From: Oscillospiraceae bacterium
Lineage (GTDB): Bacteria > Bacillota > Clostridia > Oscillospirales > Oscillospiraceae
Direction of reading: 5' to 3'
Assembly (NCBI GenBank): GCA_017415775.1
Contig: JAFQFC010000005.1
Location: 1-40,005, forward strand
Length of the DNA stretch: 40,005 nt
The notes under the pieces are model-generated. The model was not told where the DNA came from. It ran no database searches and saw only the letters and a list, made by a program, of their open reading frames with translations. The position numbers and the translations under genes are program-made. Numbering within the stretch: the stretch's first letter is position 1; every line of letters starts with the position of its first letter. This document shows, one piece after another, positions 6,084 to 21,223 of the stretch.

Positions 6084-8261
6084 TTACAGGTGCAGCACTC
6101 TGTCCTGGATCTCCTGGGTACGACCCTGGTTCCAGAACTGGGTACCGATGTAGCCGCAGGTACGGCGGGCCACATTCATCTTGTCCTGATCGGTGTTGCC
6201 GCACTGAGGGCACTTCCAGATCAGCTTGCCGTCCTCTTCCACGATCTGGATCTCGCCGTCCCAGCCGCAGCACTGGCAGTAGTCGCTCTTGGTGTTCAGC
6301 TCGGCGTAGATGATGTTGTCGTAGATGAACTGCATCACGCTGAGCACGGCGTCCAGATTGTTCTGCATGTCCGGCACCTCCACATAGCTGATGGCGCCGC
6401 CGGGGGACAGGTGCTGGAACTGGGCCTCAAAGGCCAGCTTGGCGAAGGCATCGATGGGCTCGGTGACGTGGACGTGGTAGCTGTTGGTGATGTAGCCCTT
6501 GTCGGTGATGCCCTCCACGATGCCAAAGCGTTTCTGCAGGCTCTTGGCAAACGTGTAGGGGGTGGACTCCAGCGGCGTGCCGTACAGGCTGAAGTCGATG
6601 TTGTGCTGTGCCTTCCAGCCACGGCAGGCGGCGTTGAGCTTATCCATGATCTCCAGGGCGAAGGGCGTGGCGGAAGGATCGGTGTGAGACTTGCCGGTCA
6701 TGTACTTCACGCACTCATAGAGGCCGGCGTAGCCCAGAGAAATGGTGGAGTAGCCGCCGTAGAGCAGCTTGTCGATGGGCTCGCCCTTCTTCAGTCGGGC
6801 GCAGGCGCCGTACTGCCACAGAATGGGCGCAGCGTCGGACAGGGTACCCTTCAGGCGCTCATGGCGGCACATCAGGGCACGGTGGCACAGCTCCAGACGC
6901 TCGTCAAGAATGCGCCAGAACTTCTCAATATTGCCGCCGGAAGAGAGCGCCACGTCCGGCAGGTTGATGGTGACAACGCCCTGATTGAACCGGCCGTAGT
7001 ACTTGGGCTGGTTGGTCTCGGGATCCACATAGGGGGTCAGGAAGCTGCGGCAGCCCATGCAGGTGTAGCAGTGGCCTTCGCCGTTCTTGTCCACCTTCAG
7101 CTCCAGCATCTTCTTCTCGCTGATGTAGTCGGGCACCATGCGCTTGGCGGTGCACTTGGCGGCCAGCTTGGTCAGCTCCCAGTACTTGGTGCCTTCCCGG
7201 ACGTTGTCCTCTTCCAGCACGTAGATCAGCTTGGGGAAGGCGGGGGTGACCCACACGCCCTTTTCGTTCTTCACGCCCTCGTAGCGCTGCAGCAGCACTT
7301 CTTCAATGATGAGAGCCAGATCGTCCCGCTCCCGCTCGCTGCGGGCTTCGCCCAGATACATGAACACGGTGACGAAGGGGGCCTGACCGTTGGTGGTCAG
7401 CAGGGTAACCACCTGATACTGGATGGTCTGCACGCCGCGGCGGATCTCCTCCCGCAGCCGCTTCTCGGCAATGGCGTTGATCTGCTCGTCGGTGACGGGG
7501 GCGCCGATGCCGCTCAGCTCCTCACGGACGTTCTGACGCAGCTTCTGGCGGCTCACTTCCACAAAGGGGGCCAGATGGGTCAGGGAGATGGACTGACCGC
7601 CGTACTGGTTGGAGGCCACCTGTGCCACGATCTGGGTGGCGATGTTGCAGGCGGTGGCGAAGCTGTGGGGCTTTTCGATCAGGGTGCCGGTGATGACGGT
7701 GCCGTTTTGCAGCATGTCCTCCAGATTCACCAGATCGCAGTTATGCATGTGCTGGGCGTAGTAGTCGGTGTCGTGGAAATGGATGATGCCCTCGTTGTGG
7801 GCCTCCACGATATCCTGGGGCAGCAGGATGCGGTTGGTGATGTCACGGCTGACCTCGCCGGCCATGTAGTCACGCTGGGTGGAGTTCACCACAGGGTTCT
7901 TGTTGCTGTTCTCCTGCTTGGCCTCTTCGTTGTTGCACTCGATGAGACTGAGGATCTTGTCGTCAGTGGTGTTGGACTTACGCACCAGAGACCGGGTGTA
8001 GCGGTAGGTGATGTAATTCTTGGCCACCTCGAAAGCGCCGTGGGCCATGATGTGATGCTCCACCATATCCTGGATTTCTTCCACGGTGGGGGCGCGGTTC
8101 ATCTTCTGGCACTGCAGTTCCACGCTCTGTGCGATGCGCTGGATCTGTACAGGGGTCATGCGGTCGGCTTCCGTCACGGTGTCGTTGGCCTTGGAAATGG
8201 CCATGATGATCTTGGTGATGTCAAACACGACTTCCGAGCCGTTTCTCTTGATGATCTTCAT
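6084..8261 (-). CDS. nrdD: Anaerobic ribonucleoside-triphosphate reductase
   Basis: Class III reductase converting NTPs to dNTPs without oxygen. The 725-residue chain begins with an ATP-cone allosteric domain (about residues 1-95, MKIIKRNGSEVVFDITKI). The catalytic barrel includes HMHNCDLVNL and CYTCMGCRS. Near the C-terminus is a zinc ribbon with C662/C665 and C684/C687, then RRTCGYIG, whose last glycine (G706) is the expected radical site. TAAGGAGGAGC precedes the ATG. nrdG follows. The promoter contains an NrdR-type box, so repression at high dNTP/ATP state by NrdR is likely. The length and motif set are normal for the family. Confidence 0.97.
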   Translation of the reverse strand: MKIIKRNGSEVVFDITKIIMAISKANDTVTEADRMTPVQIQRIAQSVELQCQKMNRAPTVEEIQDMVEHHIMAHGAFEVAKNYITYRYTRSLVRKSNTTDDKILSLIECNNEEAKQENSNKNPVVNSTQRDYMAGEVSRDITNRILLPQDIVEAHNEGIIHFHDTDYYAQHMHNCDLVNLEDMLQNGTVITGTLIEKPHSFATACNIATQIVAQVASNQYGGQSISLTHLAPFVEVSRQKLRQNVREELSGIGAPVTDEQINAIAEKRLREEIRRGVQTIQYQVVTLLTTNGQAPFVTVFMYLGEARSERERDDLALIIEEVLLQRYEGVKNEKGVWVTPAFPKLIYVLEEDNVREGTKYWELTKLAAKCTAKRMVPDYISEKKMLELKVDKNGEGHCYTCMGCRSFLTPYVDPETNQPKYYGRFNQGVVTINLPDVALSSGGNIEKFWRILDERLELCHRALMCRHERLKGTLSDAAPILWQYGACARLKKGEPIDKLLYGGYSTISLGYAGLYECVKYMTGKSHTDPSATPFALEIMDKLNAACRGWKAQHNIDFSLYGTPLESTPYTFAKSLQKRFGIVEGITDKGYITNSYHVHVTEPIDAFAKLAFEAQFQHLSPGGAISYVEVPDMQNNLDAVLSVMQFIYDNIIYAELNTKSDYCQCCGWDGEIQIVEEDGKLIWKCPQCGNTDQDKMNVARRTCGYIGTQFWNQGRTQEIQDRVLHL

Positions 8262-8343
8262 GTTCTGCTCCTCCTTAGTGTGAACGTTTCGTATGAAAAA
8301 CTTCCGCTTTGGCCGGAAGGTCGCTTGTGGGCGAGTACTGATA

Positions 8344-8372
8344 ATGATACACTATATCTTGTGGTGATGCAA
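8344..8372 (-). promoter_or_regulatory. nrdDG promoter
   Basis: On the minus strand TTGCAT (8367-8372), a 17-nt spacer and TATCAT (8344-8349), about 80 nt before nrdD. The leader also contains a small hairpin (CTTCCG/CGGAAG). Confidence 0.65.
8349..8364. promoter_or_regulatory. NrdR box in the nrdD promoter
   Basis: ACACTATATCTTGTGG matches the NrdR consensus ACACWATATATWGTGT at 14 of 16 positions. It lies within the spacer between -35 and -10, where a bound repressor would block RNA polymerase. A second, much weaker match (8375-8390, core ATAT) lies 26 bp away. NrdR boxes usually come in pairs; the nrdR gene itself is not in this window. Confidence 0.75.
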
Positions 8373-8456
8373 GTGCAACATATCAAGATGGGGTGAAAAG
8401 CTTGTAAAAATATGAGGAGTATTTTTGTGTGATTTGACGAAGGCGTTTCTGCACTC

Positions 8457-8485
8457 TTGCCATTTTCCCGTCGAAAGCGTATCAT
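8457..8485 (+). promoter_or_regulatory. Promoter of the FliB-like gene
   Basis: TTGCCA (8457-8462), a 17-nt spacer and TATCAT (8480-8485), 26 nt before the start codon. Confidence 0.65.
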
Positions 8486-16302: not shown

Positions 16303-16359
16303 GGCGATTGCCTCTCTTTCTCTCATATGCTGCGCCGCAGCGCAGGGGTATTCACCATG

Positions 16360-16365
16360 ATTATA
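16360..16365 (-). promoter_or_regulatory. Extended -10 promoter of the membrane gene
   Basis: TATAAT on the minus strand, preceded by TGG (an extended -10), about 60 nt before the gene starting at 16302. The -35 is weak. The leader contains a GC palindrome (near 16330-16343). Confidence 0.5.
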
Positions 16366-16514
16366 CCATAGTTTTGCGAAAAATCCACAGTAATTTCGCC
16401 TGTGTTAAAAATTCGAAAGAGAAATGTAGAAATTTTCGTGGAAATTTTTGCGGTTTTGACGATAAAGAAAATATTTCCTTTTCTGCCGGAAGCGTGTAAA
16501 ATAAGCTTATCATG

Positions 16515-16532
16515 GAATGCCTGCGGGCATTC
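16515..16532 (+). promoter_or_regulatory. Leader hairpin before the surface phosphatase
   Basis: GAATGCC (16515-16521) pairs with GGCATTC (16526-16532), about 15 nt before the AAGGAGGA ribosome site of the gene at 16560. A possible -10 (TAAAAT at 16497-16502) lies just upstream without a clear -35. The hairpin may stabilise the message; I cannot assign a regulator. The surrounding 200 nt is AT-rich and otherwise empty. Confidence 0.4.
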
Positions 16533-16559
16533 GCAAAAAACTAAGGAGGAAGAGCAACT

Positions 16560-19500
16560 ATGCGGAAGATTCTTGCATTTCTTCTGGCCATGACCATGGT
16601 ACTGAGTCTGATGGTACCTACGGCCTGGGCAGCAGAAAAAGAGGATGTGACCATTCTGTACACGAATGACATTCACACCTACATTGACAAAGAACTGAAC
16701 TACGCAAAGCTGGCCGCCTACAAGCAGACATTTGAGAATGTGCTGCTGGTGGATGCCGGTGACCATATCCAGGGTACCGCCTACGGTTCCATGGATAAGG
16801 GCAAGACCATCATCGAGCTGATGAATGCAGCAGGCTATGACCTGGCAACTCTGGGTAACCACGAGTTTGACTACGGCATGGACGGCCGCATCAAGGTGAC
16901 CGATGAGTGGGCCAAGTTCCCCTATGTCTCCTGCAACTTCTACAACGAGAAGGACGGCGTGCAGGGTACCAGCGTGCTGGACGCTTATAAGGTATTTGAG
17001 AAGGGCGGCCAGAAGATCGCCCTCATCGGTATCACGACCCCCGAGTCCTTCACCAAGTCTACCCCCGCTTACTTCCAGGATGCCAACGGTAACTACATCT
17101 ACGGCATCGCCGGCGGTACCGACGGCAAGGCTCTGTACGACACTGTGCAGAAGGCCATCGATGCTGCTTCTGCTGAGGCAGACGTCGTCATCGCCCTGGG
17201 TCACCTGGGTGACGACAAGGCTTCCCAGCCCTGGACTTCCGAGGAAGTCATCGCCAACACCACCGGCCTGGATGCTTTCATTGACGGCCATTCCCACAGC
17301 TCTGCGGCCGGCAAGAAGGTCGTCGATAAGGGCGGCAACGAAGTTCTGCTGACCCAGACCGGCGAGTACTTCGGCGCTGTTGGTCAGATGACCATCAAGG
17401 CTGACGGTACCATCGAGACCAAGCTGGTCACCGAGATCACCGCTGAGCCCGATGCTGCTGTCAAGGCCATTCAGGATGCATGGATGACCGAGATCGACAC
17501 CCAGCTGGGTCAGAAGATCGGTACCGCAGAGGTCACTCTGGACAACTACGATCCCAACTTCGGCGATCGTCTGGTGCGTAAGTACGGCACCAACTCCGGC
17601 GCTTTCGCCGCTGACGCTCTGTACTATCTGTTTGACAACATGGGTCTGGATGTGGATATGGCCATCATGAACGGCGGCGGCGTGCGCAACACGGCTGTCA
17701 CCGGCGACCTGACCTACAAGACCGCCAAGACGATCCACACCTTCGGCAATGTGGCCTGCCTGCAGACCATCACCGGCCAGCAGCTGCTGGATGCCCTGGA
17801 GTGGGGTGCCCGCCAGTCTCCCGATGTGGAAGTGGGCGGCTTCCTGCATGTGTCCGGCGTCACCTATGAGGTGGACGGCAAGGTCGTCTCCACTGTCCAG
17901 GCTGACGAAAAGGGCGTTTGGACCGGCGCTCCCACCGGTGAATACCGTGTGAAGAACGTCCAGGTCTACAATAAGGAGACCAAGGCTTACGAGCCTCTGA
18001 AGCTGGATGCCAAGTACAATCTGGCCGGCTACAACTACACCCTGCGTGATCTGGGCGACGGCTTCGCCATGTTCGACGGCGCTGTCAACGTGCTGGACTA
18101 CGTGATGGAAGACTACATGGTTCTGGCCAACTACATCAAGGGCTTCCCCGAAGCCACTGTGAAGGCCACCAACAGCCCCCTGAACACCAAGTTTGAAAAC
18201 TTCGGTGTGGACTATTCCAAGGTCGTTGTTGACCGCATCAAGGTCAGCGAAGGCAATCCCTGGGACGGCAAGATCGTCATCGGCGGTCTGGACAACGACC
18301 TGTGGATGACCAAGTACGGCAACGTCTACACCAACTGCCAGGTCAAGAACTTTGTCAATGATCTGGGCCTGACCTGGGGCGATCTGGTCACCGTCAAGTT
18401 CCTGGATCAGGAACTGGTGCTGCCCGTGGTGCCTACTTACTCCTATGTGGACAGCGGCAAGCCCGCCATCATCATGGGTAAGACCGATAAGGGCTATCCC
18501 ACCGGCTACATCTCCATGGCTATCAACATGGGTAACTTCGCCGAAACCTACGGCATCGCCACCAAGAAGACCGACGAGGCCAAGAACTGGTGGTGGGAGG
18601 CCGGTGAAGGCGTGACGTTCCCCGTTGAAGTCACCTTCACTCTGGCTGAGAAGGAAGGCTACATGGCTGAGTACATTCTGCATGACCTGCAGCGTACCAA
18701 CAACCGTGAGGACTATGCCGACCTGACCGACGAGCAGTTTGCCAACTTCCGTGAGGTGGATACCACCGGCATGGGCGAGGGCGTGCTGTATCGTTCCTCT
18801 TCTCCCATCAATCCCGAGCTCGGCCGTAATACCTACGCCGATGCTGCCGCCAAGAAGGCCGGCGTCACCTACATCATGAACCTGGCTGACAGCGAGGAAA
18901 GTGCCAAGGCCTATGCCGGCTTTGCCGACACCTACTATGCCGGTCAGGAAGTCATCTACCTGAATCTGGGCGTGGACTTTGCTGCCGATGAATTCAAGGC
19001 CGGTCTGGCTCAGGGTCTGAAGTTCTTTGCCGCCAACCGCGGCACCTATCTGGTCCACTGCACCGAGGGTAAGGACCGTGCCGGCTTCGTCAGCGCTCTG
19101 CTGGAGTGCCTGATGGGCGCTTCCTACGAGGAAGTGGTGGAAGACTACATGACCACCTATGAGAACTACTACGGCGTGGAAGAGGGCACCGACAAGTACG
19201 ATGCCATCGCCAAGAGCAACATCGTCAAGAGCCTGCAGACCGCTTTCGGTGTGGAGGATCTGACCAAGGCCGATCTGGCTGCCGGTGCTGAAGGCTACAT
19301 CAAGGCCATCGGCCTGAGCGACGCCGAGATCGCTGCTCTGAAGCTGAACCTGAGCGGCAAGCTGAATGACGTGACCGTTCTGTACACCAACGACATCCAT
19401 ACCTACATCGATGAGGCTCTGGGCTATTCCGAACTGGCCGCTCTGAAGGACAGCCTGAAGAACGTGCTGCTGGTGGATGCCGGTGACCATATCCAGGGTA

Positions 19501-21098
19501 CCGCTTACGGCTCCATGGATAAGGGCAAGACCATCATCGAGCTGATGAACGCTGCCGGTTACGATGTGGCCACTCTGGGTAACCACGAGTTTGACTACGG
19601 TCAGGATGGCCGCATCAATGTGACCGATAACTGGGCCGAGTTCCCCTATGTCTCCTGCAACTTCCTGGATGTCGCCGGCCTCACCGGCGAGCCCGTGCTG
19701 GATCCCTATGTGGTCTTTGAGAAGGCCGGCCTGAAGATCGCCTTCGTGGGCATCACCACCCCCGAGTCCTTCACCAAGTCCACGCCCGCCTACTTCCAGG
19801 ATGAGAACGGCAACTACATCTATGACATCCTGGGCGGCACCGACGGTCGTCATCTGTACGAGTGCGTGCAGGCTGCCATCGACGCAGCTTCCAAGGAAGC
19901 CGACATCGTCATCGCTCTGGGCCACCTGGGCGACGATACCGCTTCTCAGCCCTGGACTTCTGAGGAAGTCATCGCCAACACCACCGGCCTGGATGCCTTC
20001 ATCGACGGTCACTCCCACAGCACTGTGGAAGAGAAGGTCGTGAAGGATAAGAACGGCAACGACGTGGTGCTGACCCAGACCGGTGAGTACTTCGGTGCCA
20101 TCGGCAAGATGACCATCACCGCCGACGGCAAGATCAGCTGCGAGCTGATCACCGCTGTGGACGAGGATCTGGTTCCCGATGCCGAGACCAAGGCCATCGA
20201 GGATGCCTGGATCGCCGAAGTGGATGCTCTGCTGGGCGAGGTCATCGGTTCCACCGACCTGACCTTCGACAACTACGATGAGTCCGGCCGTCTCGTCCGC
20301 AAGCAGGAGACCAACACCGGCGACTTCGCTGCCGATGCTCTGTACTACCTGTTCGACAACATGGATATGGATGTGGATGTGGCCATCATGAACGGCGGCG
20401 GTGTCCGCAACAAGGCCATCACCGGCGATATCTCCTACAAGACCTGCAAGGATATCCATACCTTCGGCAACGTGGCCTGCCTGCAGACCGTTACCGGTCA
20501 GCAGCTGCTGGATGCCCTGGAGTGGGGTGCCCGTGGTACGTCCGATGAGGAGATCGGCGGCTTCCTGCAGGTGGCCGGCATTACCTATGAGATCCACACC
20601 TACATCGAGTCCACCGTCCAGCAGGACGACAAGGGCGTCTGGACCGGCGCTCCCACCGGTGAATACCGTGTGAAGAACGTGATGGTCTTCAATAAGGAGA
20701 CCGGTAAGTACGAGGCTCTGGATCTGAACGCCAAGTATAACATGGCTGGTTACAACTATACCCTGCGTGATCTGGGCGACGGCTTCGCCATGTTCGACGG
20801 CGCTGTCAACGTCCTGGACTACGTGATGGAGGACTACATGGTTCTGGCCAACTATGTCAAGGGCTTCGAGAACGGCGAGGTCGGTGCTGCCAACAGCCCC
20901 CTGAAGGCTGAGTTTGACGGTATGAAGCTGGATTACGGCACTGTCTACGGCAGCGGCCGTATCGAGCTGGTGGCTGAAAAGCCCGTCCTGCCTCCCCAGA
21001 CCGGCGACGAGGGTGTGACTGTCTATGCAGTCATGGCCATGCTGGCCCTGTGCGGCGGCGCTGCCCTGGTGCTGGGCAAGAAGAAGGAACTGTTCTGA
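16560..21098 (+). CDS. Wall-anchored double 5'-nucleotidase with phosphatase domain
   Basis: A 1512-residue surface protein. It has a signal peptide (1 to about 25, ending AWA). The first 5'-nucleotidase unit spans about 29-545: metallophosphatase motifs NDIH (36-39), DAGDH (65-69), GNHEFDYG (99-106) and GHSHS (243-247), then the C-terminal domain with NGGGVR (371-376) and GFAMFDG. Residues about 550-705 resemble the C-terminal barrel of SAM hydroxide adenosyltransferases (GNVYTN, GDLVTVKF, TGYISMAINMGNFAETYG). Residues about 725-925 resemble a tyrosine-phosphatase domain of the lipid/inositol type, with signature HCTEGKDR (H833, C834, R840). A second complete nucleotidase unit follows (about 937-1460). 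The end is PPQTGD (1479-1483), a hydrophobic helix and KKKELF, a sortase-type signal with Pro instead of Leu. Phosphatase activity on extracellular nucleotides is likely; the middle domains are inferred from motifs. Confidence 0.9.
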   Translation: MRKILAFLLAMTMVLSLMVPTAWAAEKEDVTILYTNDIHTYIDKELNYAKLAAYKQTFENVLLVDAGDHIQGTAYGSMDKGKTIIELMNAAGYDLATLGNHEFDYGMDGRIKVTDEWAKFPYVSCNFYNEKDGVQGTSVLDAYKVFEKGGQKIALIGITTPESFTKSTPAYFQDANGNYIYGIAGGTDGKALYDTVQKAIDAASAEADVVIALGHLGDDKASQPWTSEEVIANTTGLDAFIDGHSHSSAAGKKVVDKGGNEVLLTQTGEYFGAVGQMTIKADGTIETKLVTEITAEPDAAVKAIQDAWMTEIDTQLGQKIGTAEVTLDNYDPNFGDRLVRKYGTNSGAFAADALYYLFDNMGLDVDMAIMNGGGVRNTAVTGDLTYKTAKTIHTFGNVACLQTITGQQLLDALEWGARQSPDVEVGGFLHVSGVTYEVDGKVVSTVQADEKGVWTGAPTGEYRVKNVQVYNKETKAYEPLKLDAKYNLAGYNYTLRDLGDGFAMFDGAVNVLDYVMEDYMVLANYIKGFPEATVKATNSPLNTKFENFGVDYSKVVVDRIKVSEGNPWDGKIVIGGLDNDLWMTKYGNVYTNCQVKNFVNDLGLTWGDLVTVKFLDQELVLPVVPTYSYVDSGKPAIIMGKTDKGYPTGYISMAINMGNFAETYGIATKKTDEAKNWWWEAGEGVTFPVEVTFTLAEKEGYMAEYILHDLQRTNNREDYADLTDEQFANFREVDTTGMGEGVLYRSSSPINPELGRNTYADAAAKKAGVTYIMNLADSEESAKAYAGFADTYYAGQEVIYLNLGVDFAADEFKAGLAQGLKFFAANRGTYLVHCTEGKDRAGFVSALLECLMGASYEEVVEDYMTTYENYYGVEEGTDKYDAIAKSNIVKSLQTAFGVEDLTKADLAAGAEGYIKAIGLSDAEIAALKLNLSGKLNDVTVLYTNDIHTYIDEALGYSELAALKDSLKNVLLVDAGDHIQGTAYGSMDKGKTIIELMNAAGYDVATLGNHEFDYGQDGRINVTDNWAEFPYVSCNFLDVAGLTGEPVLDPYVVFEKAGLKIAFVGITTPESFTKSTPAYFQDENGNYIYDILGGTDGRHLYECVQAAIDAASKEADIVIALGHLGDDTASQPWTSEEVIANTTGLDAFIDGHSHSTVEEKVVKDKNGNDVVLTQTGEYFGAIGKMTITADGKISCELITAVDEDLVPDAETKAIEDAWIAEVDALLGEVIGSTDLTFDNYDESGRLVRKQETNTGDFAADALYYLFDNMDMDVDVAIMNGGGVRNKAITGDISYKTCKDIHTFGNVACLQTVTGQQLLDALEWGARGTSDEEIGGFLQVAGITYEIHTYIESTVQQDDKGVWTGAPTGEYRVKNVMVFNKETGKYEALDLNAKYNMAGYNYTLRDLGDGFAMFDGAVNVLDYVMEDYMVLANYVKGFENGEVGAANSPLKAEFDGMKLDYGTVYGSGRIELVAEKPVLPPQTGDEGVTVYAVMAMLALCGGAALVLGKKKELF
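16644..18195 (+). repeat. Internal duplication, copy 1 (5'-nucleotidase unit)
   Basis: First of two long direct repeats inside the surface-protein gene, coding for about residues 29-545. It aligns with the copy at 19368-20938. The stretch from the DAGD codons to the ELMN codons (about 16740-16830) and the one coding for LRDLGDGFAMFDGAV (about 18040-18090) are almost or fully identical in DNA. Confidence 0.85.
19368..20938 (+). repeat. Internal duplication, copy 2 (5'-nucleotidase unit)
   Basis: Second nucleotidase unit (about residues 937-1460). All metal-binding motifs are kept (NDIH, DAGDH, GNHEFDYG, GHSHS, NGGGVR), so both copies may be active. The DNA similarity at silent positions points to a fairly recent duplication or ongoing gene conversion. 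Confidence 0.85.
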
Positions 21099-21138
21099 GC
21101 GTAAGCTTAAAGCGGATCTTTCTCCATCATTAAGAAAG

Positions 21139-21168
21139 AGAGACGGCTCGCAAGAGCCGTCTCTTTTT
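21139..21168 (+). terminator. Surface-phosphatase terminator
   Basis: Perfect 11-bp stem (21139-21149 and 21154-21164) with a GCAA loop and a following T run, 40 nt after the stop codon. Confidence 0.9.
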
Positions 21169-21174
21169 GCGTAA

Positions 21175-21208
21175 AAAACAGGCGGCACCAGAAAGATGCC
21201 GCCTGTTT
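21175..21208 (-). terminator. upp terminator
   Basis: Arms about 21175-21187 and 21197-21208. Read on the minus strand, the hairpin is followed by TTTTTT; it lies 16 nt after the upp stop. Confidence 0.85.
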
Positions 21209-21223
21209 GGCTGTGTTTCATGT

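Follow-up and report, generated by a model that had tools for sequence, protein, structure and literature searches.

What could a bacterial surface protein do with half of an S-adenosylmethionine (SAM)-cleaving enzyme joined to a cysteine phosphatase and set between two 5'-nucleotidases? The question is raised by a gene at positions 16560-21098 (+ strand) of a 40,005-nucleotide stretch from an Oscillospiraceae bacterium (NCBI GenBank assembly GCA_017415775.1, contig JAFQFC010000005.1, positions 1 to 40,005 of the forward strand), referred to below as the window. The encoded protein of 1512 residues has the order NUC-HATC-PTP-NUC, where NUC is a 5'-nucleotidase, HATC the C-terminal barrel of SAM hydroxide adenosyltransferases and PTP a phosphatase domain of the Y_phosphatase3 type. 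Every part belongs to known families, and the combination appears to be new. A first-pass annotation of the window had described the parts of this single protein; beyond it, the barrel and the phosphatase are a real conserved unit, HATC-PTP, in all the cases examined, and the link of this unit with nucleotidases recurs by fusion and by adjacency.

HATC-PTP Is a Conserved Unit

Relatives were collected by a related-locus search, which gave 19 loci, with the unit covered in 12, and from 300 genomes of the same family, with regions retrieved from 40. HATC and PTP domains were located in the collected open reading frames (ORFs) with profiles seeded from the 1512-residue protein. This resulted in 59 HATC barrels in 54 ORFs, and every barrel was directly followed by PTP (59/59). 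One locus (L054) was a duplicate of L036 and was dropped, leaving 53 distinct ORFs, nine of which end at contig ends. Pfam comparison of these 53 ORFs showed Y_phosphatase3 in all of them and SAM_HAT_C in 39 at E 1e-5.

The family scan gave matches in 130 of the 300 genomes at E 1e-3, many of them phosphatase-only, and in 55 at scores of at least 100 bits. Presence of the unit was confirmed for 41 genomes, corresponding to all 40 regions fetched plus that of the 1512-residue protein's own gene; the other 14 of the 55 lie outside the regions fetched, and several of these match on the phosphatase side only and may be barrel-less. Two of six sampled genomes of the same genus gave a match. When SAM_HAT_C was sought in 150 family genomes, 16 had a match, and all 16 places coincided with HATC-PTP. 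Among 199 genomes of the phylum 14 SAM_HAT_C matches were found: 11 adjoin SAM_HAT_N and represent canonical enzymes, and all three without SAM_HAT_N were HATC-PTP. Such counts underestimate HATC-PTP because the Pfam model misses divergent units; genome G018 carries one detected by the family search with no SAM_HAT_C match. In the phylum as a whole the unit is rare: a match at E 1e-20 was obtained in 10 of 398 genomes, one of them the source genome.

With N and C denoting the nucleotidase halves, H the barrel and P the phosphatase, the architectures of the 53 ORFs were HP (31), NCHP (13), NCHPNC, HPNC and HPHP (two each), and NCNCHP, NCNCHPHP and NCHP repeated three times (one each). A 3502-residue ORF in L059 (5080-15588, - strand) carries SLH domains and three successive nucleotidase-HATC-PTP units. 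In L072 the HATC-PTP gene (7060-8106 and 8119-8478, + strand) has an in-frame stop near its 3' end, also seen in L020; the interrupted gene may be a pseudogene or a sequence error. Two spirochaete contigs (L044, L045) encode HATC-PTP as short, nucleotidase-free, lipoprotein-like proteins. Two canonical SAM hydroxide adenosyltransferase-like genes were found in tandem at G431:C1:585249-586968 and at G486:C5:30890-33340.

A mobile-element origin was rejected: viral contigs held no relative (67 pattern matches, none confirmed), and 72,556 plasmid records gave one partial match of 26.5%, to the phosphatase part only. An anti-phage role was also rejected, PADLOC giving no match.

Association with 5'-Nucleotidases

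A nucleotidase is fused to HATC-PTP in 20 of the 53 distinct ORFs. When the fused or unfused state is mapped onto a tree of 58 modules, no fewer than 11 changes are required (some unfused rows are truncated), and the fusion has therefore probably been gained or lost many times. A scan of all ORFs detected separate nucleotidase genes in 10 loci, in each case on the same strand as HATC-PTP and 63-236 bp from it. Eight of these loci are among the 32 unfused ones (L058, L070, L073, L077, L081, L082, L084 and L086), though not independently, some being close kin; the other two (L078, L087) are fused loci with an additional adjacent nucleotidase gene. By a rough estimate, which assumes about 3 nucleotidases among about 2000 genes in each genome, such adjacency would be expected by chance about 0.1 times in 32 loci; the 10 genomes examined gave 29 nucleotidase matches, including the fused ones.

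The survey of neighbouring families comprised 120 of 128 long neighbour ORFs, is biased by antisense shadow ORFs, and lists 25 of the 131 matched families; seven of the eight remaining long ORFs were scanned separately, and L053:11014-14067 is in neither scan. Genes with a Bmp/PnrA-like domain adjoin unfused HATC-PTP in L072 (4991-6913, + strand) and L077 (11089-13686, - strand), the latter also bearing SLH and alpha/beta hydrolase domains. The namesake of the Bmp/PnrA family is a purine nucleoside receptor.

Organization of the 1512-Residue Protein

The gene and the domains of its product were located as follows.

16543-16549, + strand: ribosome-binding site AAGGAGG (read from the sequence)
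16560-21098, + strand: coding sequence of the 1512-residue NUC-HATC-PTP-NUC predicted surface protein (ORF, Pfam and profile matches)
16560-16631, + strand: predicted signal peptide, residues 1-24, ending in PTAWA (sequence reading, in accord with a crude hydrophobicity rule)
16647-18137, + strand: 5'-nucleotidase copy 1, residues 30-526, metallophosphatase plus 5_nucleotid_C (domain and motif matches)
18309-18671, + strand: HATC, SAM hydroxide adenosyltransferase C-terminal barrel, residues 584-704 (Pfam, profile and structure matches)
18732-19352, + strand: PTP, domain of the Y_phosphatase3/atypical lipid phosphatase type, residues 725-931 (Pfam, PDB and structure matches)
19056-19079, + strand: P-loop HCTEGKDR, residues 833-840, with C834 as nucleophile and R840 (motif, predicted model)
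19371-20858, + strand: 5'-nucleotidase copy 2, residues 938-1433 (domain and motif matches)
20988-21095, + strand: LPPQTG cell-wall anchor, membrane stretch and KKK tail, residues 1477-1512 (sequence, Pfam, TIGR01167)

The ORF starts with ATG, 10 bases after AAGGAGG. The NUC-HATC-PTP-NUC order is unlikely to be an assembly accident, since the identical order is shown by L034, a contig of a goat-caecum metagenome-assembled genome, with 71% identity to the 1512-residue protein across NUC-HATC-PTP; the L034 contig ends within the second nucleotidase.

In agreement with the two full metal-dependent nucleotidases proposed by the first-pass annotation, Metallophos and 5_nucleotid_C were each matched twice above the cut-offs. 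The motifs NDIH, GDH, GNHE, GHLG and GHSH, which we take to be metal-binding, are intact in both copies, as are NGGGVR and DLGDGF. The chain thus carries two intact nucleotidases of the UshA/CD73 type, predicted to act as 5'-nucleotidases. Identity between the copies is 75% at the protein level and 80% at the DNA level. On a tree of 43 nucleotidase domains both cluster with L048 (SH-aLRT 91), and, because they group together instead of each with its L034 counterpart, the second copy may be of separate origin or have been homogenised. UshA, CD73 and streptococcal Nt5e have Metallophos, 5_nucleotid_C and the metal-site motifs in common with these copies, but in the present protein a single chain holds two such units, separated by HATC-PTP; the best NCBIfam model, Nt5e_LPXTG, scored 308 bits, below its cut-off of 1050. 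The models PRK09419.1-1 to -4 of the trifunctional nucleotidases (YfkN/PRK09419 type) matched both nucleotidase units, all far below cut-off, and to our knowledge these enzymes do not carry HATC-PTP.

An antisense open frame of 1632 residues (16323-21221, - strand) spans the whole gene. It looks like a composition effect, because TTA, CTA and TCA codons are nearly unused in the region: the sense gene has none (GC content at third codon positions 0.78), and the counts in three neighbouring genes are 0, 0 and 1. Downstream lies upp, a uracil phosphoribosyltransferase gene in convergent orientation, which is at most weak context for a nucleotide role. One further feature was noted in the interval between both genes:

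21139-21164, no strand assigned: hairpin, terminator-like on the - strand

It is not significant, as one site was found against an average of 2.9 in shuffles.

The Barrel Mostly Keeps the Adenine-Side Residues

The barrel had been described beforehand as SAM hydroxide adenosyltransferase-like and devoid of its N-terminal half, which was borne out: SAM_HAT_C matched residues 584-669 (E 6.1e-10, 39.7 bits against a cut-off of 25.5), and SAM_HAT_N matched neither the protein nor the source genome, which is 76% complete. When the single sequence of the isolated barrel was searched against the Protein Data Bank (PDB), the result was weak (E 0.13 at best), and within the PDB the link to the fluorinase family was made only by profile search and structure search. 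The barrel and the phosphatase were modelled together with AlphaFold (pLDDT 92), and the barrel of this model matches the C-domain of fluorinase and SalL.

Fluorinase numbering was transferred by alignment with fluorinase 5lmz (D210, F213, G214, N215, S269, R270, N278 and A279). In fluorinase N215 and A279 touch adenine, and D210, S269 and R270 touch methionine. One report gives D16, D21, S23, W50, Y77, F156, N215, S269, R270 and A279 as critical for SAM/fluoride binding (PMC3999930). Residues were counted in the first barrel of each of the 53 ORFs and compared with nine of the 11 canonical C-domains of the phylum. The HATC barrels keep the aromatic residue (52/53), Asn at the N215 place (44/53), N278 (51/53) and G280 (53/53). 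In contrast, Asp at the D210 place occurs in 4/53 barrels against 9/9 canonical members, and Ser at the S269 place in 3/53 against 8/9, the latter column being near insertions and alignment-dependent. The R270 place carries no weight, since Arg is conserved in none of the nine canonical enzymes. A Lys preceding the aromatic residue was found in 48/53 HATC barrels and 0/9 canonical ones. This residue pattern is what one expects if the barrel kept the adenine side and dropped the methionine side, without being proof of binding.

The 1512-residue protein itself has Asn at the N215 place, Thr at the D210 place and Lys at the S269 place. The last two replacements, the absence of SAM_HAT_N from the protein and from the source genome, and the predicted extracellular location together largely refute the idea, to which the SAM_HAT_C homology might lead, that the barrel still performs adenosyl chemistry on SAM like the SAM hydroxide adenosyltransferases; we consider it highly improbable. 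HATC-PTP has the SAM_HAT_C barrel in common with the SAM hydroxide adenosyltransferase/fluorinase/SalL family (DUF62; PF01887 and PF20257), but differs from it in the missing N-terminal domain, the loss in most cases of the methionine-side Asp and Ser, the joined cysteine phosphatase, the Lys before the aromatic residue and a signal-like N-terminus in 47 of the 53 ORFs.

The Phosphatase and Its Candidate Substrates

Y_phosphatase3 matched residues 809-931 (E 1.3e-15, 58.5 bits against a cut-off of 22.2), so that the domain search returned both families anticipated by the first-pass annotation, with the catalytic residues intact. The HCx5R motif it had named was found as HCTEGKDR with C834 and R840. 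In the predicted structure C834-R840 (274-280 in model numbering) connect a strand (270-273) with a helix (280-291), and are modelled in the usual strand-P-loop-helix arrangement of the PTP fold. In this family the catalytic Cys (here C834) attacks the phosphate and the Arg (R840) holds it. The phosphatase part of the model matches Mycobacterium tuberculosis PtpB; by sequence, the nearest proteins of solved structure are PtpB and a Clostridioides difficile PTP (8dhi), and Siw14 and PFA-DSP1 match the domain in fold. Siw14 is an inositol pyrophosphate phosphatase by the title of its structure entry, and PFA-DSP1 is another.

The sequence HCTEGKDRAG at residues 833-842 fits the P-loop signature HCXXGKDR[TA]G, which the report on Pho16B assigns to atypical lipid phosphatases (ALPs), a class linked to phosphoinositides whose loop has an extra basic Lys (K838 here) and an acid/base Asp (D839 here) (PMC6409689). 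According to the same report, Pho16B, which is secreted, belongs to Y_phosphatase3 and bears this signature, acted on 10/10 substrates including ADP, ATP and NADP; naphthyl phosphate was best, InsP6 was used at about 30% of that rate, NADP was lowest, and InsP6 was held by the authors not to be the primary substrate (PMC6409689). Pho16B belongs to the same P-loop class as the PTP studied here and, as far as it is described there, apparently has no barrel. Its breadth indicates that nucleotides can be cleaved by this class without being specially preferred, and the barrel could supply such a preference. From the ALPs, PtpB and other Y_phosphatase3 proteins (Pho16B, M. tuberculosis PtpB, 8dhi), with which PTP shares fold and signature, it differs in the preceding HATC, the frequent fusion to or adjacency with 5'-nucleotidases, and the predicted wall or S-layer anchoring.

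The signature, the use of InsP6 by Pho16B, the solved relatives and one neighbour matching a Na/Pi cotransporter all favour the chief rival explanation: HATC-PTP would be an extracellular inositol-phosphate/lipid phosphatase that draws on phytate or phosphoinositides as its phosphate source in the gut; the barrel would be merely structural or oligomerising, and the nucleotidase would add a second source of phosphate. It has to contend with a partner that, by fusion and adjacency, is recurrently a 5'-nucleotidase, with the modest InsP6 rate and the Pho16B authors' own denial, and with the kept adenine-side residues, for which it gives no reason; nor was any inositol-catabolism family seen among the listed neighbour families, within the bias and coverage stated above. 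We regard this explanation as somewhat unlikely.

Predicted Surface Display

The secreted nature and sortase-type anchor claimed for the protein were upheld. The C-terminus consists of LPPQTG, a hydrophobic stretch and KKK; it passed the TIGR01167 anchor model (19.7 against 15.9) and was slightly under the cut-off of Pfam Gram_pos_anchor (18.0 against 20), and the source genome has three sortase matches. The 1512-residue protein is predicted to be exported and wall-anchored. By the crude rule a signal-like N-terminus was present in 47/53 ORFs, four of the six others being cut by contig ends. An LPXTG-like tail was seen in 3/53 and a lipobox-like start in 5/53, two of them from the spirochaete contigs. 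The accompanying Pfam domains were SLH (28), 5_nucleotid_C (20), alpha/beta hydrolase (6) and LysM (3). The same HATC-PTP unit is thus apparently anchored in four different ways. In L073, L075, L084 and L089, SLH and alpha/beta hydrolase (S9/esterase-like) domains precede HATC-PTP in the same ORF.

That many architectures share only anchor or other modules (SLH 28/53, alpha/beta hydrolase 6/53) suggests modular display, and could mean that HATC-PTP is a protein phosphatase acting at phosphotyrosine or phosphoserine on surface proteins of host, dietary or bacterial origin, with the nucleotidases as passengers on the same surface platform; protein phosphatases are indeed among its fold and motif relatives. 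The specific nucleotidase pairing recurs, however, and the P-loop has the extra Lys and Asp that characterize the ALP type (PMC6409689). We judge this possibility improbable.

Proposed Role

The reading put forward here, with moderate confidence, is that the protein is an exported, wall-anchored nucleotide scavenger in which the barrel presents nucleoside phosphates to the cysteine phosphatase. The barrel would bind a phosphorylated compound by its nucleoside (adenine) moiety, and C834, with K838, D839 and R840, would remove a phosphate inaccessible to the two metal-dependent 5'-nucleotidases. Candidates are 2'- and 3'-phosphates and beta/gamma phosphates, whose removal would complement the 5'-nucleotidase. 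The 5'-nucleotidases would then take the 5'-phosphate, leaving nucleoside and phosphate available for uptake. Stepwise dephosphorylation at the cell surface, the combined role suggested by the first-pass annotation, is retained as a proposal of this kind. More tentatively, HATC-PTP may be a new, nucleoside-recognising class of cysteine phosphatases, in which PTP now completes the adenine pocket once completed by SAM_HAT_N and C834 attacks the bound nucleotide, the unit having been recruited many times into the surface nucleotidase systems of anaerobic gut bacteria.

Several observations weigh against the proposed role. No fused nucleotidase is present in 33 of the 53 ORFs, an upper bound because of the nine ORFs cut by contig ends (five of these 33), and 24 of the 32 unfused loci show no neighbouring nucleotidase, some flanks being short. 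The kept aromatic-G-N and N-x-G residues may reflect fold rather than binding, and the N215 equivalent is missing in 9/53 barrels. A 912-residue NUC-HATC-PTP model was poor (pLDDT 62.8, pTM 0.41). We know of no HATC-PTP protein whose activity has been established. Pho16B is promiscuous and prefers naphthyl phosphate, and its weakest activity, on NADP, speaks against a 2'-phosphate for the class, which is otherwise linked to phosphoinositides (PMC6409689).

Conclusions

A literature search, which for the most part did not extend to subscription papers, gave no description of the HATC-PTP unit or of its coupling to nucleotidases among the matches listed. If the proposed role is true, a fold of SAM cleavage and fluorination has been halved and reused as the substrate-binding part of an unrelated phosphatase. 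The protein would then offer a concrete enzyme for studying the harvesting of nucleotides and phosphate outside the cell by gut anaerobes, and the conversion of nucleotides at the cell surface to nucleosides such as adenosine.
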